Of a DNA stretch of 64,000 bases, positions 3,562-21,683 are shown piece by piece. The notes under the pieces were generated by a model that was given only the letters and a program-made list of their open reading frames with translations, ran no database searches and had not been told where the DNA came from. The DNA comes from Spirochaetales bacterium (lineage in GTDB: Bacteria; Spirochaetota; Spirochaetia; SZUA-6; RPPD01). Location: contig JAFGGG010000009.1 of assembly GCA_016930675.1 (NCBI GenBank), forward strand, positions 124,001 to 188,000, written 5' to 3'. Within the stretch, counting starts at the first letter, position 1. Each line of letters begins with the position of its first letter. A program made the position numbers and the translations under genes.

Positions 3562-6500
3562 TTACTCTCCCAAGACCTCTTCTACCGCGGAAAGCAGCTC
3601 TTCCTGATTAAAAGGCTTCTGTAAAAAACTCTTCACGCCCATAGCCATCACTTCCTGCACCCGCTGATCCTTTCTGAAACCGGACATAAGGATTACTTTT
3701 ACACGTGGATCAAGCTGCTGCATCTCCATAAATACCTGTTTGCCGGATTCCTTGGGCATGACCATATCCAATAGGACCACGGATATTTTTTCGTGATGCG
3801 ACTTAAAATGCGCAAACCCCTCGGCCCCGCTTTCGGCACTGAGCACTACATAACCCACCGATTTAAGGATTCGCTCTACCGATTTTCTGATTACCTCTTC
3901 GTCTTCAATAATCAACACCGTACCATGACCATGGTGTACCGCCTTTTTAGGCTGTTCTTTAACCTGTTTTGTTTTTTTGATACGTTGAATGGGGAGATAA
4001 ATATGGAAGATGGAACCCTGCCCCAATTCCGAATACACATTGATATGCCCGTTAAAGCGTCTGATAATACTGTATACCATGGCCAATCCGAGCCCGGTTC
4101 CTTTACCTGTATCCTTGGTGGTAAAAAAGGGCTCGAACACTTTTTTCACCGTGTCCTCATCCATGCCTATTCCTGTATCTTCTATGGAAAGGCACCAATA
4201 ATCTCCGCGAACCGCATCTTCGACACCATTACCTACCGGCTTATACAGGATTACTTTTTTTATACTTATTGTAAGCGTACCACCCCATTTTTGGTTTTTA
4301 GGCCGCATAATTGTCATGGCGTGCGACGCGTTAATGCAAAGATTGAGAATGACCTGTTCCAGCTGAGCGGGATCAGCCATAATAGGTGCGGTTTCCGGGT
4401 GATACGATATATCAAATTCAATGCCCTTATCAAAAGATTTGCGGCAGATCTTGAGTACGTGATTAAGAGCATCATTGAGATCAACCGAAACAAATCGTAC
4501 TTCTTTACGCATGGAAATAGTAAGCAGCTGCTGAACTAAATTTGACGCTCTTTCCACCAGCTGGGTTATCATTTTAAATTCTTCTTCAAAATCGGATCTG
4601 GAAAAGGAATTTTTAGAAGGCAGTATACCGTGATTAAGAAAAGAGATGGTGGCCAGAATTCCACCCAAAATATTGTTGAAATCATGGGCCAGTCCTCCCA
4701 CCAGAGTTCCCACCGCCTCCATTTTTTGCGCTTGAATAAGATGCTGCTGGATTTTCTCCTGTTCCGTGATATTATTCAACTTTATAACAGCACCGGTAAT
4801 CTCTTCATACACTAAAGGAAAAATGGTAACCGCCCAATACTGTTTTTTTAAGGGCACTTTCTGGAACTCGATCAGCCGGTTCTCATTTACTACCTGTTCA
4901 AAGGCTTCCTTATATTTTTTCAGGACCGGTGCCGTCTGCCAAAGTGTTTTTTCAAGCGTTGCTTTGGCCAGTTCCGGAAAGCATGATTTTGCCACTGCGT
5001 TTATATACGTTGTACAGCCGTCAGGGTCTAAAGCGATAAGCGCCACAGGCATGGAATCGATAATACTGTTTAAATAGATCTGTAATTTTTTGGTTTCACG
5101 AAACAACAGTGAGTTTTCAAGCGCGATCGCCGCTTGTCCGGCCATGGCGTTCAACAAATCAAGTTCATGTTCCGTAAACAGACCCCCCACAAGATGGTTG
5201 CTGAGATATAACAAACCGATTTTTTTGTTCCTGCTTAAAAGCGGGACACAGAGAATGGATTTCAGTCCGTATTTATTAACGTGAGGATCGCTGCGGAAAA
5301 TAGGATCATTCCCCGCATCGGAAATAACCAAAGGCTTCCCTGAGTAATCGACTTTGGAAACCACACCCATACTCGCAGGGCTCTCCTCCGTGCCTTCGAT
5401 CACCACATGATATTTGGAAACAGGTTCATTTGCTTCATACAAAAACAGTTCGCCCTGTTCCGCGCCCACCAGCTGAATCGCGTGATTTAATATCTCTTCC
5501 ATCAACAGATCAATATCATGAATGATATTTATTTTTTTTCCGATATCGATTACCGTATCCAGCTCTCTGCTTATGGTAAAAGATCCCGGTTTGCTGTGAA
5601 TCACCGCGCGTTGCGTCTCTGCTATTTCCGTATGTATATTCGCTCTCTGTTCCATGAGTTCTTGAAGCAATCTTTCAATCTTATGCATTTCATACTCGGC
5701 CCCGCAGTTGTCAAAATCCAGGTACGTGTTCTCCAGTATTTCTATTGCCCGGCGAGGATCAACTGCCGTTAAGAACTCTCCATAGCAGTAAAAAAACACG
5801 GCTTTATTATAGCTTTCAGGACTATCTTTAAAATATTTCATCCCCTGTTTAAAGATTCGTTCCGCTTTTTTACGATCATTTTCCACAAGCCACGCATACA
5901 ATACAGAGATCAGGTAGAAGATGCCTCTTTGACAATCATAGGCTTCTGCCAGTTGTTTACACTTGAGATAATACTTTTTAGCTAATCCCAACCGCCGCTG
6001 TCTCTCCGTTTCGGTCTCGGCATATTTTATAAACTTGTCCAATAATGCTTCTACAAAGAAGGGGAATATCCTGGAAATCACTACACCATGAGCCTGGTGT
6101 TCTTTATTAATTATTTCAAGCGACTTATTAAAATACTCTTCGGTTTTATAAAAATAACCCTTTCTGCTGTACGCTTTAACCAAAAACAAATATGTATATT
6201 GACAGTTTACTTTGTCGGAAACCTTTATAAACTCAACCAAAGCGTTTTCCAAGAGTTTTATGGCTTCATCGGTTCTGCCGAGGTGATAGGCAGCAATTCC
6301 CGCGTAAAGGTCTCCGAGACTTATCAAAAGGGTGTTGTTAAAGATATTGCCTTTGGCTCTTACCTCCTCGGCAAGTTCTACCAGCATATTAAATTTTCCA
6401 TGATACTCAAAAATCTGGGCACAACAGTTGCTTATCTCCTGAAGATAGGTGACCGTATGCTGCTCCTGCAAAATGCCCAGCGCTGATCTTGCATTTTCAT

Positions 6501-9444
6501 AGGCCGAAATGTTCATCTCAATTGCTCCGTATACAGCCAGAAAAAGGGCCTTTACCAAAGGAGGATTATCTAAGGCTCCGATATGTTTATTTATTCTCCT
6601 TAAAAAGCGCCGGATGCGTTTATAGAGTTTTTTCACCACTGCCGGCGGACCGTCGATCGATCCGAGTACCGCGCAATGGGTAAGGAGAAGCTCAACACCC
6701 TCTTCGCTAATCCCCGCCCGATCGCACAGGTTAAGGGCTTTAAAATGAGAGTATATAAGCAGTTCCCTTTTCATGGCCCACAAACACACCCAGCCGATCA
6801 TTTGAAAAAGCATCTGTTTTTTATACTTTATACTTTCCTTCCTAACTATGATTTTCTTTCTAAACAGATAGGGAAAAAGGGAATGTATGAACTGTGTTAT
6901 TATTTCCTTAAGCAGCTTGAATCCCAGTACAGACATGTTTTCTGATACTCTTTCATTCAGTAAATGCAGAGAATTTTTCAAGATCCGGATCGCCTCATCA
7001 TATTTTCCGTTGGCTACCAGGCTGTAACTCATTTTTTTATACAATTCAATTTTGTCTTCCTTATCTTGAATAAAAGTCAGCGCCGCTTCAAAATGTTTTC
7101 CGGATTCATGATAGTCTCCAATATGTTTCAGCGACTCGCCTAGTTTTTCATGCAGCACACCCAAGTCAGCCTGTCCCCGGTTTTTACTTCGCTTTTTGGT
7201 TTTAAGGGCTAAATTAAAAAAGCGGACCGCATCCTGATGGCTGTTTCTGCTTTGGGCGAACTCTCCGGCCTTGATTAAATACTCAATCTTCTTTTTGTTA
7301 TTATTGGAATATTGGTAATGATGAAGTATTTTATACACGGATGTATCATCCAGTGCTTCCAGATAGTGAGCGATTCGTTCATGGTACTTTTTACGAGTCG
7401 TAAGCGGAATCTTATCATAAAAAACCTCATGCACGATGTCGTGACTGAAATAAATGGATGATCCTCCTGAAATAACAATGTTGTTCGCTTTAGCCTTCTC
7501 AATTGCCTGAAATATACTGTCATTGTGCAGTTCATTAAAACAAAGAGCCAGATGAGAGAATTCAAATTCCTTTCCGTATACAGCCGCCATGGCAAGCACC
7601 TCGCGTTCCTCCTGTGAAAGCTGGTTGGCGGTATTAATAATCAAACCGGCCACATTCCGCGTATACGGCAGCACATTAATCGCGGAATAATCAATTTCCC
7701 AGCCGTCTCGGTAACTCACCACTCCTTCACGCAGCAGCATCTGCACGAATTCCTTTACAAAAAAGGCATTGCCCGCTGTTTTTTGATAAATAACGTGCGC
7801 GAGTTTTTTTAGTTCTCCGCTTTCATCGCCCAACATCCGACATAATACCTGGAGCACCTCCTTATCCGAAAGGTTCTTGATTTTTAAATGGTGTATATTC
7901 TTTTCTTCAGCCAATGCAGCCTTGAATCCGCCTTCACTGCCTGTATCACCTTCTCTTGCAGCCAAAATATAAAAAATATTATTCAGATTTTTTGTTTTTG
8001 ACAGTTTCTTTAACAGCGCCAAGGTTTCATTGTCTGCCCACTGGATGTTATCTATAAAAAACACAACCACCGGCAGGTGTTTGCCCATACTTCCCAACAA
8101 TCTTATAAATACATTATCAAATCTTATTTTTTCTTTATCTCCTTCCAGCTGCTTAACCGAAATACTGCCGGCAAACAGATTATTGAGCTTGGGTATGGAA
8201 TAAGAAAACAAACCGCCCAACTTCCCCAATACCTGCTTAATGGAATCTTTTATCGAAAAATACTTGTCTTTGGAAAACATCTCTATCAGGTCTAAAAAAT
8301 GATTCACACAGCGCGTGAAACCACTGTAGGGCAATGGATTTTCCCTCTCTTCGAATTCCGTACTTACACAGATGCCTCCCGTTTTGATAGTATGCTCTTT
8401 TAATTCCTCCAACAGCCTTGTTTTACCCACACCGGGCTCTCCGCTTACCAAGACTATTTTCCCTCTGCCTTTTTTTGTCTCCTCATACAGGGATTTCAGA
8501 TATGCCAGCTCATACGATCTGCCCACAAAACTTATGTGCTCCTTTGAAATCTCCGGCCTGGTGGAGCTGCCCGGAATAAAATTCAATCTCTTGGGTTCAC
8601 CGGATATTCCTTTTTGAATACTTTTCAAATCTCTCACAAGAATTTCAGTGTTGGAATACCTGTCCGCTATCTCTTTTCGTAAAAGTTTTTCAATTACGTG
8701 TTCCAGAATCTCCGGCACCTCCGGGTTATATTTAGTTAAAGGATACGGCTCCGAAGCGATATGCATATGTATAAGTGAATAAATATCATTATGCTGGTAA
8801 GGAAGTTCTCCGGAAAGCATTTGGTAAAATAAGACACCTAAGGAATACAGGTCGCTGTGCAGATCGACAGGCCGCTTTAGCACCCCGCTTTGTTCGGGTG
8901 ACATATAGGCAAAGGTGCCTGAAATATGAGATCTGTATACACTGCCCAGATCCTTTAATAAGGCAACTCCAAAATCCAGTAATTTAATGCTGATCTCATT
9001 GGTGCTGACAGTGATTATGATATTCCCCGGCTTAATATCACCATGTACGACATTTTTATTGTGAATAAAAGCCAATGTTTCCGAAAGCGGTATGGCTATC
9101 TTTAAAAAAGTTGACACATCCAATACGCCCTTGTCCTTTAAAAACGCGGCCAAATCCTGGCCCTCCACATATTCCATGGCAATATAATTACTGCCGTCGC
9201 TTTCCCCGAAATTATATATTTCTACAATATTCATATGCCGCAACTGCTTTAGAATACTGGCCTCTTTGTTAAAGAGCAGCAGATTCTCAATATTCTTACT
9301 CCTTTTCCCCTCCAATATTTTTTTTACCACGAGCTTCTGCCTGCTTTGTATATCTTCCGCCAGCCAGATCTCGCTTATATCACTGCCGGCAATTTTTTCT
9401 TTGAGTTTATACTTTTCAGCAATGATAATTTCTTTAGACTTCAA
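3562..9444 (-). CDS. Ser/Thr kinase-AAA-TPR-GAF-PAS-histidine kinase-receiver hybrid protein
   Basis: 1960 residues, no signal peptide. Domains in order: a Ser/Thr protein kinase (about 10-275: Lys in LVVKK, HGDIKPGN near 135, DFG near 158, SPE of the activation segment); a predicted ATPase with Walker A GEPGVGKTR near 338 and Walker B VVVFFIDNIQWAD; a long helical TPR-like region (about 680-1260); GAF (about 1325-1450); PAS (about 1460-1560); histidine kinase with LAHDFNN near 1587, N box, DTGIGM and GTGLGLA; and a receiver with LLDMVMP near 1891 and the KPF lysine. The kinase glycine-rich loop is weak (AGSDIS). This matches the large STPK/histidine-kinase hybrids known from cyanobacteria, myxobacteria and spirochaetes; in those the ATPase-TPR part is a MalT-like regulatory module. 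The start is TTG in a TTGA overlap with the upstream citrate-synthase-like gene, with a G-rich Shine-Dalgarno about 8 bases upstream, so the two are translationally coupled. Input and targets are unknown. Confidence 0.92.
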   Translation of the reverse strand: MKSKEIIIAEKYKLKEKIAGSDISEIWLAEDIQSRQKLVVKKILEGKRSKNIENLLLFNKEASILKQLRHMNIVEIYNFGESDGSNYIAMEYVEGQDLAAFLKDKGVLDVSTFLKIAIPLSETLAFIHNKNVVHGDIKPGNIIITVSTNEISIKLLDFGVALLKDLGSVYRSHISGTFAYMSPEQSGVLKRPVDLHSDLYSLGVLFYQMLSGELPYQHNDIYSLIHMHIASEPYPLTKYNPEVPEILEHVIEKLLRKEIADRYSNTEILVRDLKSIQKGISGEPKRLNFIPGSSTRPEISKEHISFVGRSYELAYLKSLYEETKKGRGKIVLVSGEPGVGKTRLLEELKEHTIKTGGICVSTEFEERENPLPYSGFTRCVNHFLDLIEMFSKDKYFSIKDSIKQVLGKLGGLFSYSIPKLNNLFAGSISVKQLEGDKEKIRFDNVFIRLLGSMGKHLPVVVFFIDNIQWADNETLALLKKLSKTKNLNNIFYILAAREGDTGSEGGFKAALAEEKNIHHLKIKNLSDKEVLQVLCRMLGDESGELKKLAHVIYQKTAGNAFFVKEFVQMLLREGVVSYRDGWEIDYSAINVLPYTRNVAGLIINTANQLSQEEREVLAMAAVYGKEFEFSHLALCFNELHNDSIFQAIEKAKANNIVISGGSSIYFSHDIVHEVFYDKIPLTTRKKYHERIAHYLEALDDTSVYKILHHYQYSNNNKKKIEYLIKAGEFAQSRNSHQDAVRFFNLALKTKKRSKNRGQADLGVLHEKLGESLKHIGDYHESGKHFEAALTFIQDKEDKIELYKKMSYSLVANGKYDEAIRILKNSLHLLNERVSENMSVLGFKLLKEIITQFIHSLFPYLFRKKIIVRKESIKYKKQMLFQMIGWVCLWAMKRELLIYSHFKALNLCDRAGISEEGVELLLTHCAVLGSIDGPPAVVKKLYKRIRRFLRRINKHIGALDNPPLVKALFLAVYGAIEMNISAYENARSALGILQEQHTVTYLQEISNCCAQIFEYHGKFNMLVELAEEVRAKGNIFNNTLLISLGDLYAGIAAYHLGRTDEAIKLLENALVEFIKVSDKVNCQYTYLFLVKAYSRKGYFYKTEEYFNKSLEIINKEHQAHGVVISRIFPFFVEALLDKFIKYAETETERQRRLGLAKKYYLKCKQLAEAYDCQRGIFYLISVLYAWLVENDRKKAERIFKQGMKYFKDSPESYNKAVFFYCYGEFLTAVDPRRAIEILENTYLDFDNCGAEYEMHKIERLLQELMEQRANIHTEIAETQRAVIHSKPGSFTISRELDTVIDIGKKINIIHDIDLLMEEILNHAIQLVGAEQGELFLYEANEPVSKYHVVIEGTEESPASMGVVSKVDYSGKPLVISDAGNDPIFRSDPHVNKYGLKSILCVPLLSRNKKIGLLYLSNHLVGGLFTEHELDLLNAMAGQAAIALENSLLFRETKKLQIYLNSIIDSMPVALIALDPDGCTTYINAVAKSCFPELAKATLEKTLWQTAPVLKKYKEAFEQVVNENRLIEFQKVPLKKQYWAVTIFPLVYEEITGAVIKLNNITEQEKIQQHLIQAQKMEAVGTLVGGLAHDFNNILGGILATISFLNHGILPSKNSFSRSDFEEEFKMITQLVERASNLVQQLLTISMRKEVRFVSVDLNDALNHVLKICRKSFDKGIEFDISYHPETAPIMADPAQLEQVILNLCINASHAMTIMRPKNQKWGGTLTISIKKVILYKPVGNGVEDAVRGDYWCLSIEDTGIGMDEDTVKKVFEPFFTTKDTGKGTGLGLAMVYSIIRRFNGHINVYSELGQGSIFHIYLPIQRIKKTKQVKEQPKKAVHHGHGTVLIIEDEEVIRKSVERILKSVGYVVLSAESGAEGFAHFKSHHEKISVVLLDMVMPKESGKQVFMEMQQLDPRVKVILMSGFRKDQRVQEVMAMGVKSFLQKPFNQEELLSAVEEVLGE

Positions 9445-10274
9445 CCGGCTGTCCCCCTTTTTGCTTTTCCGGTATAGATAATATCACTCACTTTGAGGGG
9501 AAGCAGTGGTACATATTCACTTTTTTCTTTAATTTCACAGGCCGGCAAATATGAAGGCAGACTAACCATGTAATGCGCCATTACCACTATCTTATTATCA
9601 TCACAACAAAACGGCGGATCTAAAAGTAATGTCACAAATAAGGCTGCGTAATTTGGATGAATATTTTTATGTTTGGTAATAAGCGGTGCTATTTTAAACA
9701 GCAACTTTGTATATGTGCCAAGAGGATAATGCCATTCCTTAAGTAGTTCCGAAAGTTTGGTATAGCGTTCGTCCGGGCCCTGTATTAATGGCCGGCCAAA
9801 GCCAGGGAAAAATAAACCTTTACCCAGATATTCTTCTACTATCTCCTCTGCCGGGCGATTTGTTGAATCCTCCGCAAACTTTTCAAAAAATCGTTTACAA
9901 TTCAACGAAGCGCCAACAGCAAAAATCTTTGAATTAGCAGCCGCGTGCGCTGCGCCAAAACATGAAGATAAGGGCGCGCCCGATGCTGCTGCATAAGCAC
10001 CTGTTCTTATACTCCAAATTCTCATATCAGGATAAATATTCATGCAGATGAAAGTATCCATCAATTTTGTTTCCAAGTCGGTCGGTCTTCTCCCCAATGC
10101 CCACAACAATATGGACTCGGTTTGGGTAAGGTTCCCTGCGAGTTCGTCAATTACATCTTCTCCGCAAAAATCGATCTTCCCGTCCACTATACCTCCGAGT
10201 GAAGTAGTAATTGTATTGTAGCAATCATGGTACTGCTTAAGGCTTTCCTGTTTTGTTTTCATTCTTCCTCTCAT
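9441..10274 (-). CDS. citrate-synthase-fold protein B, canonical catalytic residues absent
   Basis: 277 residues (an alternative ATG at 10262 gives 273). The layout follows the citrate synthase/citryl-CoA lyase superfamily: an N-terminal helical part with DELAGNLTQTE, a RIW-x-x-R-x-G-A-Y-A-A-A helix, and FFPGFGRPLIQGPDERY, which matches the usual PGFGH-x-x-x-x-x-DPR substrate loop. By my alignment the first catalytic His (HGGA) is AVGA at 119-122, the second (GFGH) is Arg161, and the Asp is Ala210 in PNYAAL. It therefore keeps the fold but not the known chemistry. It lies 14 bp after paralog A and overlaps the giant kinase gene by 3-4 bases. It could be a non-catalytic or regulatory subunit, or an enzyme with new residues. 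It is shorter than full citrate synthase (about 370-430), like single-domain citryl-CoA lyase modules. Confidence 0.72.
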   Translation of the reverse strand: MRGRMKTKQESLKQYHDCYNTITTSLGGIVDGKIDFCGEDVIDELAGNLTQTESILLWALGRRPTDLETKLMDTFICMNIYPDMRIWSIRTGAYAAASGAPLSSCFGAAHAAANSKIFAVGASLNCKRFFEKFAEDSTNRPAEEIVEEYLGKGLFFPGFGRPLIQGPDERYTKLSELLKEWHYPLGTYTKLLFKIAPLITKHKNIHPNYAALFVTLLLDPPFCCDDNKIVVMAHYMVSLPSYLPACEIKEKSEYVPLLPLKVSDIIYTGKAKRGTAG

Positions 10275-10288
10275 CCTGTGTTTTTTGT

Positions 10289-11110
10289 TTATTGTTTTTT
10301 ATTATGTTCGTTCCCTGATTTTCTTTCATAATTATACACAGCATCAGAAAACCAGGTAGGATACTCATACCATTTTTCCGTATAACGTTCACTTAAGAAT
10401 CCCAACATGGAGGCTCCGCCGGCAAGCATATAAAGCCCGTGTCCCTGTTCAGGTGAAAATCCGAGATCCAGCAGTGAAGCCCCGAATACGCCATAGAGGC
10501 GTATTCGATGTTCACATTTTTCCGCTATTATAGTTTCTATCTTTACCAATAAACGGACGAAATTCCCATCCCATTGCCGCTTCTGCAAAAGCTTAAGAAG
10601 CCGGACGGCCTGAGTATCCTGTTCGGCATATAAAAATCCGAATCCGGGAATCTGCTCATTGTTTTGATATCTGTCTATTAATGCATTATAAGAAAAAGGG
10701 AATGCCGTGTCTTGGTCTGCTTGCTTTTTGATATCCAAAAGCATCCTCATAACGGCTTCAACCGCCAGTCCGCCCTGCAGCTCACCCATGGCGCAGGAAA
10801 ATCCGGCCGTAAGCGCTCCGCCCACGGGACAGCCCCCGATGGCGGCCGACATAGCCGCTCTATTCTGGAGATCGCGCGGCCCCGGATTCATGACAGCGGT
10901 AAGCAATAGATTAAAATGATTATTTGATTCCTTTGAGGGTAATTCACCTTTTAAATGAAGAAAAACTAGCTCGGCCCAGCTGTAATTTCCTAATAAATCA
11001 TTATAAAAATCATAACCATGGCAATAACTCTTCTCAGCATAGAACGGATTATGAGCGGCTGCTTCTTCACACCAAATTGAAGTCTTTATTTTGTTTTCTA
11101 ATTTCTTCAA
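10289..11110 (-). CDS. citrate-synthase-fold protein A, canonical catalytic residues absent
   Basis: 273 residues from a TTG start placed 8 bases after a perfect AGGAGGT. Superfamily signature seen: GYDFYNDLLGNYSWAELVFL, GELPS, a central helix, ELQGGLAVEAVMRML, IPGFGF and RLYGVFGASLLDLGFSPE. These correspond one for one to citryl-CoA lyase/citrate synthase blocks, but His of HGGA is Gln112, His of PGFGH is Phe159 and the Asp of the N-x-D-G block is Tyr206. So none of the three residues used for enolisation and condensation is present. It sits between the ThDP enzyme gene (36 bp upstream) and paralog B (14 bp downstream). A heteromeric complex of A and B is a reasonable inference. Product name and substrate cannot be assigned. 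Confidence 0.75.
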   Translation of the reverse strand: MKKLENKIKTSIWCEEAAAHNPFYAEKSYCHGYDFYNDLLGNYSWAELVFLHLKGELPSKESNNHFNLLLTAVMNPGPRDLQNRAAMSAAIGGCPVGGALTAGFSCAMGELQGGLAVEAVMRMLLDIKKQADQDTAFPFSYNALIDRYQNNEQIPGFGFLYAEQDTQAVRLLKLLQKRQWDGNFVRLLVKIETIIAEKCEHRIRLYGVFGASLLDLGFSPEQGHGLYMLAGGASMLGFLSERYTEKWYEYPTWFSDAVYNYERKSGNEHNKKQ

Positions 11111-11146: not shown

Positions 11147-12931
11147 CTATACTGTTTTTTTCATGTACTTTAAAACTGCACGAACCCTTTCTATAAAAGG
11201 AGGTTCTTCTTCCGCATCAATAATCGCATCGATGACAGCCGGCTTTTTTTCTCGAACGATCTGGGGCATTATCTCGCACAGCTGTCCGGGTTCCGTAACC
11301 CGGTATCCGGTTGCGCCCATCACCTCGGCAAAAGCCACAAAATCAACCGGATGGAACTGTGACGACAGGCTTTTGCCTATCACTGCACGGTTTCCATGGT
11401 ACACCATTCCCCACTTACTGTCATTTAAAACAAGCCAGATCGCCGGAATATTATATTCAACCGCGGTATGAATTTCATTGCCGTTCATGAGTACGGCTCC
11501 GTCACCGACCACGGCTATCACCTGTTTTTGGGGAGCCGCCAGAGCCGCGCCGACAACACCGGCTGTCGCATGTCCCATGGAAGCGAATCCCAAAGCGATA
11601 TAATACTTTTGGGGGGGATTAATCACCAAATAATGCAATGTCCAGGCATATGAATTCCCCGCATCGGCAATTACAATGGCATCCTTCTCCAAACAGCTAT
11701 TCAGATCATGCATTAACCGCTGCGGCTTTAAGGGAACCGCATCGGAATGCATTTTTTCAGGTTCCTGATAAATTCCGGTTTGTCTCTTATATTCTATTAA
11801 ACTCTCGAATCTTTTACCGTTCACGATATGCTTGAGAGAAGTAATCGGAATCTGGTTTTTAATTCGCAATAAACTTATAAAAAGCTCCTTGACAGCCGCG
11901 CCCACATCACCCACAATACCCAGGCTTACCGGAAAATTCTGACCGATATTCTGTGAATCAACATCAATTTGAATAAGATATTTACTGGGGAAAAGATCGG
12001 GATTCCAGGCATCCGTGGTCCACTCCCCCAAGCGACTGGAAATCACAAGCAGCAGATCGACCTCTTCTTCGAATAAATATTTTTTAGCGCATAAATTGCC
12101 CGCAAAACCGAAAACACCGAAGGAAAGCGGATGACTTTCGGGGAAAATCCCCTTACCCTTGGGTGTGGTTAATACCGGACAGTTTAACATTTCGGCAATA
12201 TGGATGAGATCCTCTCTATGATATTCTGAACTTATACCCGGGCCCACCAAAATCGCCGGACGCTTGGCATTCACAAGCAGGGTTGCTGCTTTCTTTATCT
12301 GTTCAAAATCTATTGCCGCGTGTGAAACACGGTACTTTTTGGCGTCACTGTGTATATCAATCTTATTAAATTTGTATGAAGAAACATTAGTGGGAATACT
12401 TAAATGCACCGCCTGCTTATGTTCTCCCTGAGCCACCCTTAAGGCGCGGGTAAGAAGCTGCTGAAGTACTTCGGGCTCTGAAATCAAACTACTGAAACCG
12501 GTAAACTGACCATAGATCCCTACCGTATCAACACCAAACTCCGAGCTCTCTTGTACCGCGCCTTTACCCATAGTATGCGTGGCCGGCTGACCTGTAATTG
12601 CCAGCAGAGGTACCCGATCCTGCTGCGCGCACGCCACGCCGGTAAGCATATTGGTCGCGCCCGGACCGGCCGTGGAAAGGCAGACACCAATGCGACCGCT
12701 CACACGGGCATACATATCAGCCATAAAAGACGCGCTGCCCTCATGCTTGCTCATAATAAAATTAATGTCCTCTGCCTCTTCCAACGCCTCCAAAATCGAG
12801 ATAATAGTACCGCCGGAAACTCCGAATACATATTTCACACCCTCAACTTTTAAATACTCTATTAAAACCTGGGCGCATGTTACGTTTTTAAGTGTGTTAA
12901 AATTAGTGATGCTAAAATCAATGGGAGACAT
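11147..12931 (-). CDS. ThDP-dependent enzyme, acetolactate-synthase-like
   Basis: 594 residues from ATG 12931, preferred because AAGGTGG lies 6 bases upstream; a TTG 27 bases earlier has no such signal. It shows the three-domain layout of the POX/acetolactate synthase family: N-terminal pyrimidine-binding domain with activating Glu64 (SKHEG) and STAGPGATN; a middle Rossmann-like domain (AKRPAILVGPG); and a C-terminal diphosphate domain with the ThDP motif GDGAVLMNGNE...LVLND near 475. The family decarboxylates 2-keto acids and transfers the resulting carbanion to an acceptor. There is no small regulatory subunit (IlvN) and no other branched-chain gene nearby, so ordinary acetolactate synthase is doubtful. 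It is first in the operon with the two citrate-synthase-like proteins, which suggests a ketoacid or acyl-CoA substrate. Confidence 0.85.
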   Translation of the reverse strand: MSPIDFSITNFNTLKNVTCAQVLIEYLKVEGVKYVFGVSGGTIISILEALEEAEDINFIMSKHEGSASFMADMYARVSGRIGVCLSTAGPGATNMLTGVACAQQDRVPLLAITGQPATHTMGKGAVQESSEFGVDTVGIYGQFTGFSSLISEPEVLQQLLTRALRVAQGEHKQAVHLSIPTNVSSYKFNKIDIHSDAKKYRVSHAAIDFEQIKKAATLLVNAKRPAILVGPGISSEYHREDLIHIAEMLNCPVLTTPKGKGIFPESHPLSFGVFGFAGNLCAKKYLFEEEVDLLLVISSRLGEWTTDAWNPDLFPSKYLIQIDVDSQNIGQNFPVSLGIVGDVGAAVKELFISLLRIKNQIPITSLKHIVNGKRFESLIEYKRQTGIYQEPEKMHSDAVPLKPQRLMHDLNSCLEKDAIVIADAGNSYAWTLHYLVINPPQKYYIALGFASMGHATAGVVGAALAAPQKQVIAVVGDGAVLMNGNEIHTAVEYNIPAIWLVLNDSKWGMVYHGNRAVIGKSLSSQFHPVDFVAFAEVMGATGYRVTEPGQLCEIMPQIVREKKPAVIDAIIDAEEEPPFIERVRAVLKYMKKTV

Positions 12932-13125
12932 AGAGGCCACCTTCGGACCTAAGTTCAAGTTTAATATAGAATATATCCTATATTTCCTGACTTATGCCAC
13001 GATAAGTGATATATCCTGTTTTGTCAACAAAATTTTCTCCTCCACAATATTTTAATATACACGGAAAGCAATCTTTACTACAATTATTATGGAAAATATA
13101 TTATAATGGGGTAGCAAGGAGACAA
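12932..13125. promoter_or_regulatory. divergent promoter region between ThDP operon and GGDEF-EAL gene
   Basis: This AT-rich 194-bp gap separates two divergent starts and must hold both promoters. For the plus-strand gene a perfect TATAAT lies at 13102-13107, about 19 bases before the ATG, but no convincing -35 is seen at the right distance. For the minus-strand operon I see several AT-rich candidates but none I would defend. No clear operator palindrome was found. Confidence 0.35.
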
Positions 13126-15189
13126 ATGGACCTTACGGGGACACGGATACTTATTGTAGACGACAAACTGGACAATCTCAATACCTTAAGTCATATGCTG
13201 CGTAAAATCGGTTTTGATGTCGATACCGCACAAGACGGCGAAAGTGCCATAAAAAAATGCCATTCCCATAAATTTGACCTGGTGCTTCTGGATATCGTCA
13301 TGCCGCGTATGGACGGTTACCAGGTGCTGAAGGCTTTAAGAGAAAACTATTCGATGATCGAGTTACCCATAATAATGCTTACGGCGGTATCTGAAAATTG
13401 TGATATTGTGAAAGCACTCACGATAGGCGCCAATGATTATGTTATAAAGCCCTATGATTTTTCAGTAATTAACTCCAGAATTCGCACTCAGATCAGCCTT
13501 AAAAAAACACAGGAAGCGCTTAAACAAAGCGAAGAGCGGTACACCCTAGCCGCTCAAGCCACAAAGGACGGTTTATGGGATTGGGACTTAATCACAAATC
13601 GAATTTATTATTCTCCCAATTGGAAAGCTATTATTGGATTTTCAGAAAAACAAATTGATAATACACCTGACGAGTGGCTGGGACGCATCCATCCTGCGGA
13701 TAAAGAACAGGTTGAACTGTATCTGGAGAAACTGAAAAAAGGCGAAATAAAGCGCTTTGAAGTCGAACAACGGATAATGCATAAAAACGGTAATTATCGC
13801 TGGGCAGTTGCCACAGGGATTGCAGTAACTAATAATAACGGTAAGTCCGTACGTTTAGCGGGCTCTTTGGTAGATATTACGGACCGAAGAATTTATAATG
13901 TACTGACAGGACTTCCCAATCAAATACTTTTATTGGATCAACTGGAACGGGTCTTGCGTCAAATCAAATCAAAAGCTAAACAGACGGCCGCCCTCTTGTT
14001 CATCGATCTGGATCGCTTTAAGCTTATTAACCAGGCGCTGGGCATGAAAGTCGGTGATAAAATATTAGTACAGATCTCCGAAAGACTGGCCTCTTGTATC
14101 AGCTCCGAAGATATTCTGGCCCATTTCGGCAGAGATGAGTTTTTAGTACTCATAAACGAGTATGAAGATTTAAAAAAGCTTTCGGATACAATAATTTGCT
14201 TAAGGGAAATCATTAACAAACCGCTTCTTATACCCGAGGCCAAAGAAGATATCAGCGTTTCCGCGAGTATCGGAGTAGTGATAATCGATAAAAAGTATCA
14301 ATCCGTGCAGAAAGCGCTACAGGATGCCGAATCAGCCATGCAGCGCGCCAAAGCCAGTGGTCCTAATAACTTCCGTTTTTTTATTAAAGAGATGTATACA
14401 CAGGTTAAGGAACGGCTGAAAATAGAGAACAGACTGCGAAAGGCCTTGGAACGTGAAGAACTTGTGCTTTACTATCAACCTCAGGTAAGTATAAAAAGCG
14501 GCGAGGTAATTGGTGTTGAGGCATTGGTTAACTGGCACGATCCGGAAAAAGGCCTCATCACACCGGGCAAACTGATCCCCCTGGCTGAAGACAACGGCAT
14601 GATCGTTCCCATGGGTGAGTGGATTATGCACGAAGCATGTCGTCAGCATATGGCATGGCAGAATCAGGGGTTGTGTTTGCAGCGGATCGCGGTTAATTTA
14701 TCCGCCATTCAATTCAGCCAGAGAGATCTTTATAAGACTCTCGAAAATATTCTTAAAAAGGTCAAATTGGATCCTCAGTATTTGGAATTGGAAATTACGG
14801 AAAGCAGTGCCATGCAGGACGCGGAAACCACAATAAAAATCATGAACCGCCTTACAGAACTGGGTATTTCCTTTTCGATTGACGATTTCGGCACAGGATA
14901 CTCTTCACTTTCGATACTTAAACGCTTTCCCCTTACCACACTTAAAATCGACCGTTCCTTTATTCAGGATGTACCCGGAGACGATGATGCGGTAGCAATC
15001 GTAAAAGCAATTATAGCCATGGCTCAAAGTCTTAAATTCGAGATGATCGCAGAAGGAGTCGAGAACCGGCAGCAGCTCGATTTCTTGCGGGATTTAGGCT
15101 GTCAAAATTTTCAAGGCTTTTTATTCAGCAAACCTCTGCCCGCAGAACGTATGACGCAGTTTTTAATGTCAAAAACTGTAGCTGTATAA
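13126..15189 (+). CDS. response regulator with PAS, GGDEF and EAL domains
   Basis: 687 residues, start chosen at ATG 13126 because AAGGAG lies 5 bases upstream. Domains: receiver (RILIVDDK, phospho-acceptor Asp56 in LLDIVMPRMDG, Lys in YVIKPYD), PAS (about 135-250, DGLWDWDLITN), GGDEF (about 255-415), EAL (about 430-680). The diguanylate cyclase signature reads GRDEF at 335-339 rather than GG[D/E]EF and no RxxD inhibitory site precedes it, so cyclase activity is doubtful. The EAL half keeps EAL at 465-467, NLSAIQF, EITES, DDFGTGYSS, KIDRSF and EGVE, so c-di-GMP phosphodiesterase activity is likely. Known family role: control of motility and surface state through c-di-GMP. No sensor kinase is adjacent. 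Confidence 0.92.
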   Translation: MDLTGTRILIVDDKLDNLNTLSHMLRKIGFDVDTAQDGESAIKKCHSHKFDLVLLDIVMPRMDGYQVLKALRENYSMIELPIIMLTAVSENCDIVKALTIGANDYVIKPYDFSVINSRIRTQISLKKTQEALKQSEERYTLAAQATKDGLWDWDLITNRIYYSPNWKAIIGFSEKQIDNTPDEWLGRIHPADKEQVELYLEKLKKGEIKRFEVEQRIMHKNGNYRWAVATGIAVTNNNGKSVRLAGSLVDITDRRIYNVLTGLPNQILLLDQLERVLRQIKSKAKQTAALLFIDLDRFKLINQALGMKVGDKILVQISERLASCISSEDILAHFGRDEFLVLINEYEDLKKLSDTIICLREIINKPLLIPEAKEDISVSASIGVVIIDKKYQSVQKALQDAESAMQRAKASGPNNFRFFIKEMYTQVKERLKIENRLRKALEREELVLYYQPQVSIKSGEVIGVEALVNWHDPEKGLITPGKLIPLAEDNGMIVPMGEWIMHEACRQHMAWQNQGLCLQRIAVNLSAIQFSQRDLYKTLENILKKVKLDPQYLELEITESSAMQDAETTIKIMNRLTELGISFSIDDFGTGYSSLSILKRFPLTTLKIDRSFIQDVPGDDDAVAIVKAIIAMAQSLKFEMIAEGVENRQQLDFLRDLGCQNFQGFLFSKPLPAERMTQFLMSKTVAV

Positions 15190-19655: not shown

Positions 19656-19684
19656 TTGTCATAATTCTTTATGCGGATTATAAT
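19656..19684 (+). promoter_or_regulatory. sigma-70 promoter of caspase fusion gene, possibly leaderless
   Basis: TTGTCA (19656-19661), a 17-base spacer, and a perfect TATAAT (19679-19684). A transcript starting 7-8 bases after the -10 would begin at or next to the A of ATG 19692, and no Shine-Dalgarno precedes that ATG. The region is AT-rich, so chance matches to the -10 are common, but the -35 and exact spacing add weight. Confidence 0.5.
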
Positions 19685-19691
19685 AATTATA

Positions 19692-21683
19692 ATGAAAAAG
19701 TTTTTTTGCTGGTCTTTATTTGTTTTTGCCGCCTTTTCATTATTACTGCTTATCAATGCAGAGAGTAATCCAATCAAAAAAGTGGCCTTGGTAATCGGAA
19801 ACAGCGCCTACAAAACATGCGGTTTAAAAAATCCTGCCAATGACGCATATGATTTAAGCAAAAAGCTGGAGAGGTTTGGATATGAGGTTATCAAACTGAT
19901 AAACGCGGGCAAACAGCAGATGAAGGAGGCAATAAGAACCTTCGGCGACAAGCTTTCCCAGGATTGGAATACACTGGGTTTATTCTATTATGCGGGTCAC
20001 GGCTGCCAGGTAAAGGGGATTAATTATCTTATCCCTGTGGACGCGGATATAAAAGAGCAAGACGAAGTCGAATACTCTGCTATTGATGTGGGATTTGTCC
20101 TGTCCAAAATGGAAAGCGCCGGAAACAGGGTGAATATCCTCATGCTCGACGCCTGCAGGGACAATCCGTTCAGAAGTTTCAGGACAGCCACACGAGGGCT
20201 TACGGTGGTTGAAGCGCCCAAAGGATCGCTTATCGTCTACGCCACGGCGCCGGGTTCGGTGGCCGCGGACGGCAAGGGAAGAAACGGTGTATTCACAGGC
20301 GCATTGTTGAAACATCTGGACAAGAATCCGGGAATGGATGCCGAGCTTTTTATAAGGAATGTCCGAAAAGAGGTGATGGTTGAAACCGGCAATGAACAGG
20401 TGCCGTGGACGTCGTCATCACTCACGGAAGGCATTTCGCTTAAAGGTACTATGCCGGAAAATACAGTCACGATTGTTACAACCACAAAAGAACTGGAAGG
20501 CACTCTTTCTATCTGGTCGTTTACCGATGAGTTTAAAACCGAAGGCATTATCGCGCGCTTTGAAAAAAAGCATCCCAAGGTAAAGGTAAACCTGCATGTT
20601 GTTACTCTCGGAGCCTATATAAAAGACCTCACGTCCAGATTACGCACAGGCAAGGATACCCCCGATATTTTTACGGCTGAAAACTCGAACCTTATCGAAC
20701 TTACGGAAAGCGATTTTTATGAGGACCTTTCCCGGGAACCTTATAATGCGGATGTATCGGATCTTTTTCTCTATCTGGTAGACGCAGCCACTGATTCTAA
20801 AGGAGCTTTACGGGCCGTTTCCTGGCAGGCCACTCCCGGTGGTATCTATTACAGAAGAAGTCTTGCCAGGCAGTATCTTGGTACCGACGATCCTGTTAAA
20901 GTGGGCAACATGCTCGACTCAGAAGAAAAATTTCTGGATGTTGCCCGAAAGATTAATCAAAAAAGCGGAGGAAAGGTTAAAATACTGCCCAGCTATATTG
21001 ATTACATGCATTATCCGCTTTGCCGGCGAACAAAAGCTTTTGTAGGGAGAAACAATAAATTTAATCTTGAGCAGTGCATTATCGATTATTTTGACCTGGC
21101 CAAAACCATGTATAACGAGCACCTGACTGCGGAAATTCAACAATGGTCATCTGAATGGTTCGCAGAAATGAATAAAAAAGACGCAAAAATATTCTGTTAT
21201 ATTTTACCCACATGGGGGCTGCACTATCAGCTTAAAGCACATGCAAAAAATACTAAAGGAGACTGGGGGCTGTGCAAGGGACCGGACTCCTATTTTTGGG
21301 GCGGCACCTGGATAGGAATCAATAAAAACTCAAAGAATAAGGAAATCGCCTGGGAGTTTATAAAAATGCTGACTCAGGACCGAGAAACAATTAGATGGTA
21401 TGCCAAAACCACAGGCGATTTTATCGGTAATCAGGCAATAATAGAAGAAATTAAAAATAATTTTTCCGAACCGTTTTTAAAGGGCCAGAACCACTATCTT
21501 TATTTCGCCGATGAAGCACCCAAGGTGAAGGGATATATTATGGGGAAATATGATCTGGATATCTGGGAGCTAATGAAGAGCGCTATCCAAAACTATGTGA
21601 ACGGCACGCTCACCAAAGAAGAGGCTCTTGAATCCTTTAAGAATGAGATAAAACAAATTCATCCGGATGTGATTGTGGAATGA
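19692..21683 (+). CDS. secreted caspase-fold protease fused to ABC solute-binding domain
   Basis: 663 residues if it starts at ATG 19692, just downstream of a good promoter; an ATG 21 bases upstream is the alternative but would overlap the -10. Signal peptide at 1-24. Residues about 28-255 are a C14/metacaspase-type domain: KKVALVIGNSAYK, catalytic His103 in YYAGHG, Cys155 in LMLDACRDNPF, and the ATAPGSVAADG substrate loop. Residues about 268-660 are an extracellular solute-binding protein of the sugar ABC class: TLSIWSFTDEF, FEKKHPKVKVN, TPDIFTAENSN, FWGGTWIGINKNSKN, AWEFIKMLT. Both halves look complete. No ABC permease or ATPase gene is near. The fusion suggests a periplasmic protease regulated by, or directed to, a bound carbohydrate; this is inference. 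Confidence 0.85.
   Translation: MKKFFCWSLFVFAAFSLLLLINAESNPIKKVALVIGNSAYKTCGLKNPANDAYDLSKKLERFGYEVIKLINAGKQQMKEAIRTFGDKLSQDWNTLGLFYYAGHGCQVKGINYLIPVDADIKEQDEVEYSAIDVGFVLSKMESAGNRVNILMLDACRDNPFRSFRTATRGLTVVEAPKGSLIVYATAPGSVAADGKGRNGVFTGALLKHLDKNPGMDAELFIRNVRKEVMVETGNEQVPWTSSSLTEGISLKGTMPENTVTIVTTTKELEGTLSIWSFTDEFKTEGIIARFEKKHPKVKVNLHVVTLGAYIKDLTSRLRTGKDTPDIFTAENSNLIELTESDFYEDLSREPYNADVSDLFLYLVDAATDSKGALRAVSWQATPGGIYYRRSLARQYLGTDDPVKVGNMLDSEEKFLDVARKINQKSGGKVKILPSYIDYMHYPLCRRTKAFVGRNNKFNLEQCIIDYFDLAKTMYNEHLTAEIQQWSSEWFAEMNKKDAKIFCYILPTWGLHYQLKAHAKNTKGDWGLCKGPDSYFWGGTWIGINKNSKNKEIAWEFIKMLTQDRETIRWYAKTTGDFIGNQAIIEEIKNNFSEPFLKGQNHYLYFADEAPKVKGYIMGKYDLDIWELMKSAIQNYVNGTLTKEEALESFKNEIKQIHPDVIVE

Follow-up and report, generated by a model that had tools for sequence, protein, structure and literature searches.

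Two citrate-synthase-fold paralogs without the catalytic triad in a conserved spirochaete operon with a ThDP enzyme and a giant hybrid kinase

The window, i.e. the whole 64,000-nucleotide stretch of DNA from an uncultured Spirochaetales bacterium analysed here, carries two adjacent genes, A and B. Their products are functional paralogs of the short citryl-CoA-lyase type that separated long ago (a putative single origin, with long branches in the tree) and that retain none of the three catalytic residues of citrate synthase. The two genes are maintained together in a compact operon that also encodes a giant sensor kinase and an enzyme of acyloin synthesis, so that a change of function is more probable than a loss.

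Fold and active-site positions of the two paralogs

The pair consists of two complete genes, found where the original prediction had placed them:

10289-11110, minus strand: paralog A, a short citrate-synthase-fold (citryl-CoA-lyase-type) protein of 273 aa, with Gln112/Phe159/Tyr206 at the triad positions
9441-10274, minus strand: paralog B, a short citrate-synthase-fold protein of 277 aa, with Phe118/Arg161/Ala210 at the triad positions

Gene A starts with a TTG codon preceded by GGAGG, and 14 nt separate it from B. Both proteins pass the Pfam Citrate_synt cut-off of 27 bits (39 for A, 32 for B). Their closest PDB structure is 6hxp, the short citryl-CoA lyase of Hydrogenobacter thermophilus, whether searched by sequence, by profile (8e-15 for A, 2e-8 for B) or by Foldseek with AlphaFold2 models built from an 18-row alignment of the locus proteins (mean pLDDT 78 for A and 72 for B). 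Foldseek ranks 6hxp first with a probability of 1.00, TM-scores of 0.66-0.72 and E-values of 4.6e-11 (A) and 4.1e-8 (B), followed by the CCL modules of ATP-citrate lyases. Since the three approaches all return 6hxp first, the citrate synthase fold of A and B is secure, and it spans the whole of each protein according to the Pfam HMM, the profile search and Foldseek. The two align with one common region of 6hxp, 14-227 for A and 26-174 for B by sequence and ~240-250 columns by structure. The idea that the pair is an ordinary citrate synthase split in two, against which the original prediction had asked to be checked, was thus rejected, each protein aligning with an entire citryl-CoA lyase.

In the multiple alignment, the catalytic positions H274, H320 and D375 (numbered, throughout, as in pig citrate synthase) correspond in A to Gln112, Phe159 and Tyr206, an assignment proposed from the start and upheld by alignment and model. 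For B, Arg161 and Ala210 were likewise called correctly; the residue initially proposed for the first position, Ala119, is one residue off, the correct one being Phe118, which alignment and predicted secondary structure put two residues before a helix, like Gln112 of A. His110 of B, considered as a displaced H274, was rejected because it sits inside the preceding helix. Ala210 lies within a PN[YF]A segment where PNVD is expected, B retaining the PN. In the orthologs described below, the three positions read Glu/Thr/Tyr (A) and Phe/Arg/Ala (B), so that all 12 triad positions of the four proteins are non-catalytic; intact citryl-CoA lyases from the same phylum (genomes G049, G419 and G352) read H-H-D in that alignment. 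None of the alignments restores His, His and Asp in A or B. The three replacements in B and Tyr206 in A are unchanged between orthologs; positions 112 and 159 of A differ (Q/E and F/T, respectively), a variation that gives no hint of a new catalytic set having become fixed at these two sites.

The loss extends to other active-site positions. The position of His238, involved in oxaloacetate binding, is occupied by Pro76 in A and Pro82 in B; the equivalents of R329 and R401 are both absent from A, and that of R329 is present in B as Arg170. With the two His and the Asp gone, enolisation of an acyl-CoA in the manner of citrate synthase is not expected of A or B, and neither, judging from its sequence, is expected any longer to perform citrate synthase or citryl-CoA lyase chemistry. 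Overall, A and B resemble citryl-CoA lyases (PRK06224; 6hxp; the CCL module of ATP-citrate lyase) in size, fold, full-length alignment and PGFG loop, but they differ in lacking the His-His-Asp triad and the His238 equivalent, in scoring far below the NCBIfam citryl-CoA lyase cut-offs (PRK06224 models; at best 102.8 bits vs 245 for A, and 46.3 vs 212 for B), and in having operon neighbours unrelated to citrate.

Conservation of the pair and of its operon

The genes surrounding the pair, and a promoter-like element, are:

11147-12931, minus strand: ThDP enzyme; the ORF extends to 12958, the conserved start being probably the Met at 12931
3562-9444, minus strand: giant protein of 1960 aa with Ser/Thr kinase, AAA_16, TPR, GAF, PAS, HisKA/HATPase and receiver domains; TTG start
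13126-15189, plus strand: divergent receiver-PAS-GGDEF-EAL protein, syntenic in G001; start approximate (ORF from 13006)
12999-13027, minus strand: promoter-like TTGACA-N17-TATCGT upstream of the ThDP gene; consensus match only

Orthologs of A and B lie next to each other in G001 (contig JAFGJO010000065.1), a Spirochaetales MAG of the same family and another genus, with 46% identity for A and 51% for B. Identities at codon positions 1, 2 and 3 are 56, 70 and 32% for A and 58, 71 and 35% for B; as synonymous sites are saturated and protein-changing sites are not, both genes are under purifying selection. Active-site segments, which we picked from the alignment after citrate synthase, are more conserved between orthologs than the rest of the fold (40/63 vs 55/143 identical in A, Fisher p 0.0007; 44/62 vs 65/144 in B, Fisher p 0.0005), which argues for a retained ligand pocket. 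Within them, the PGFG loop is identical at 16 of 17 positions in B and at 7 of 16 in A. The view that the triad was not lost by random decay is therefore borne out by an orthologous, syntenic pair in another genus, by purifying selection and by the conservation of the active-site segments.

The order ThDP enzyme, A, B, giant kinase, together with the divergent receiver-PAS-GGDEF-EAL gene, is the same in the window and in G001; this synteny covers five genes, and the genes farther out differ. The giant hybrid kinase, which the original prediction had overlooked, is thus the fourth gene of the conserved unit, and, in the window as well as in G001, the beginning of its reading frame shares 4 nt with the end of B, at the stop codon (TTGA and ATGA, respectively), an arrangement that commonly indicates translational coupling. 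In G001, the ThDP gene is preceded by TTGACA-N17-TATTGT, again a consensus match only. On the operon strand, terminator-like stems are fewer than in shuffled sequences, with a single weak one within A. Alignment of the two divergent intergenic regions (window and G001) revealed no conserved motif, the score being below the shuffled mean.

The pair, for which a search of other genomes had been suggested, was indeed found again, yet only in two Spirochaetota genomes among those searched: the source genome of the window (G000; 3.2 Mb, 78% complete) and G001, after searches of 61 relatives, of the complete set of 26 genomes from the order and of a sample of 393 genomes from Spirochaetota. A genome-contig scan with the single A sequence and two viral-contig scans, all working with a few short peptide patterns, returned no relatives; a genome-contig profile scan with B, of the same kind, matched the G001 contig alone, and tblastn against plasmids gave just distant citryl-CoA-lyase-type matches (23-28% identity). 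As the search outside Spirochaetota consisted of short peptide patterns and plasmids only, the unit may occur there.

Two observations concern other parts of the window. A MATE-type transporter appears to be divided between two ORFs (1425-2372 and 2433-2846), through either gene disruption or faulty assembly, and a Caspase-domain (Peptidase_C14) protein is fused with an ABC-type solute-binding protein domain (19671-21683).

Triad losses elsewhere in the phylum

Other short citrate-synthase-like proteins of the phylum lack one to three of the triad residues, including a second type of tandem pair found in three genomes (G086, G075 and G060), in which two overlapping short citrate-synthase-like genes precede one for a SauS/EutE-like acylating aldehyde dehydrogenase. 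Their loci, and those of single proteins discussed below, are:

L102:568-2483, L103:2080-4028 and L104:7868-9870: tandem citrate-synthase-like pairs with an acylating aldehyde dehydrogenase
L018:7969-8793, L019:7600-8454, L020:8175-9080, L021:1830-2654 and L034:1381-2229: citryl-CoA-lyase-type proteins without the catalytic Asp

These pairs share with A/B the tandem arrangement of short genes, the triad losses and a second member devoid of all three residues. They differ in that the first member keeps His274 (the only triad residue left), His238 and an Arg, whereas A and B both lack the triad; in addition, no ThDP enzyme or kinase was seen nearby, and they branch apart from A/B in the tree. 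In the five single 'citryl-CoA lyases' the two His are present, Pro or Ala replaces the catalytic Asp, and an HHPQH motif stands at the PGYGH loop. Because such proteins can lack the catalytic Asp, one of them (in G012) even while scoring above the curated NCBIfam cut-off, the annotation 'citryl-CoA lyase' is unreliable. A literature search for degenerate citrate synthases or for citryl-CoA-lyase/dehydrogenase pairs found nothing relevant. Triad loss is thus not unique to A/B, which represent the extreme case with both members lacking any triad residue. The novelty of the pair is therefore weaker than had been implied. The roles first suggested for A and B, a new enzyme, a CoA sensor or a partner of the ThDP enzyme, would each fit the operon.

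Possible roles of the pair

Against solved structures, the ThDP enzyme scores 470 bits with BbmA, 277 with CsmA and 246 with the best acetolactate synthase, and by sequence it belongs with the first two, which are alpha-hydroxy-beta-keto acid synthases. It retains the catalytic Glu73 and the GDG...N motif (Gly485-Asp-Gly487, Asn512). Elsewhere, the genome carries genes for an intact citrate synthase and for a further protein of the acetolactate synthase type, so neither housekeeping job need fall to the A/B operon. In the cyb (furanolide) pathway, the ThDP enzyme CybE is followed by an acyl-CoA-using enzyme, CybF (PMC12395478), annotated as a 3-oxoacyl-ACP synthase (PMC8777810). The A/B operon is reminiscent of this layout, its citrate-synthase-fold pair adjoining an acyloin synthase closest, among solved structures, to BbmA and CsmA; however, CybF does not have the citrate synthase fold, and the conserved unit lacks an acyl-CoA ligase and an ammonia lyase.

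Citrate-synthase-fold proteins are dimers and the two genes form a fixed tandem pair, from which we infer an A-B heterodimer. We tentatively favour, at a little under an even chance, a heterodimer whose remodelled pocket would act on what the ThDP enzyme produces, making or reporting a hydroxyketone-type metabolite or signal. By analogy with its closest relatives, the ThDP enzyme would couple two alpha-keto acids; the resulting alpha-hydroxy-beta-keto acid can decarboxylate to an acyloin. The heterodimer pocket would bind this product, with or without an acyl-CoA, and A/B would then either alter it chemically or deliver it to the giant hybrid kinase. That the pair may bind the acyloin and either modify it or inform the kinase is suggested by the constraint on the pocket, the operon partners and the overlap with the kinase gene. 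The operon as a whole would make and report a small hydroxyketone-type metabolite or signal, with the divergent receiver-PAS-GGDEF-EAL protein as a putative c-di-GMP output.

A more specific version, a four-gene synthesis-and-sensing operon in which the ThDP acyloin synthase and the emptied heterodimer produce or capture a hydroxyketone-type metabolite read by the Ser/Thr-His hybrid kinase, is conceivable but doubtful. Gene pairs of an alpha-hydroxyketone synthase and a sensor kinase are known in Vibrio and Legionella (CqsA/CqsS and LqsA/LqsS; PMC3376566). The likeness, a hydroxyketone synthase gene paired with a histidine kinase gene, is one of layout and not of membership: those synthases are PLP enzymes and the one in the window uses ThDP, CqsS and LqsS are membrane sensors, and neither system includes citrate-synthase-fold proteins. 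The favoured reading is weakened by the restriction of the unit to two of the genomes searched and by the variation at positions 112 and 159 of A; several observations on the kinase count against it too. Pfam reveals no obvious extracellular sensor domain; similar giant kinases are common in the order, and no citrate-synthase-like gene adjoined any of those whose gene neighbourhood was inspected; and the Ser/Thr kinase domain of the G001 protein (L016:10290-16196) reads HGN in place of the HGD of the window (HxD being expected), so that it may be a pseudokinase.

The same data can be read in other ways. A and B could be a non-catalytic metabolite sensor, whose pocket would bind CoA or an acyl-CoA/keto acid and whose dimer would directly regulate the giant kinase, the ThDP product not being their ligand; this would account for the way in which B and the kinase gene overlap in the window and in G001, the almost invariant PGFG loop of B and the loss of all catalytic residues from otherwise conserved pocket segments. 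We consider it rather unlikely, as the same loop is poorly conserved in A and as the operon begins with a biosynthetic enzyme, needless for a pure sensor. Still less probable is a new, active enzyme whose catalytic residues have moved to other positions and which performs acyl transfer, hydrolysis or aldol-type cleavage independently of signalling: candidates identical in the orthologs exist (Tyr206 and Arg79/Asp80/His224 in A; Arg161, Arg170 and His110/His234 in B), and the aldehyde-dehydrogenase-linked pairs suggest CoA-ester chemistry without the classical triad, but with just two orthologs single-residue identity is weak evidence.

The adjacency and fixed order of the genes in both genomes, and the fact that non-catalytic citrate-synthase-fold proteins could act as scaffolds, would also suit a role of A and B as subunits on which the ThDP enzyme depends for its structure or its allosteric control. 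This is distinctly unlikely, since the conserved parts are pocket segments and not surfaces alone, and since the structure search retrieved the solved chains of BbmA and CsmA as ThDP enzymes only and named no citrate-synthase-fold partner. Finally, the lost triad and the low identity to any solved enzyme might point to decaying or misannotated genes or to one split citrate synthase; this we regard as highly improbable, both genes being open and conserved in another genus, with third codon positions saturated and first and second kept, each aligning with a whole citryl-CoA lyase, in a genome with a separate intact citrate synthase.

The citrate synthase fold is known almost exclusively from CoA-ester C-C lyases or synthases with a fixed triad. 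The A/B pair, whose pocket is constrained and whose genes adjoin those of an acyloin synthase and a giant kinase, would be a case of the fold having been adapted to binding, sensing or other chemistry, and its locus would offer a concrete, testable spirochaete operon. If the four genes do combine synthesis and sensing, they would represent both a new use of the citrate synthase fold and a new layout of hydroxyketone signalling in spirochaetes.
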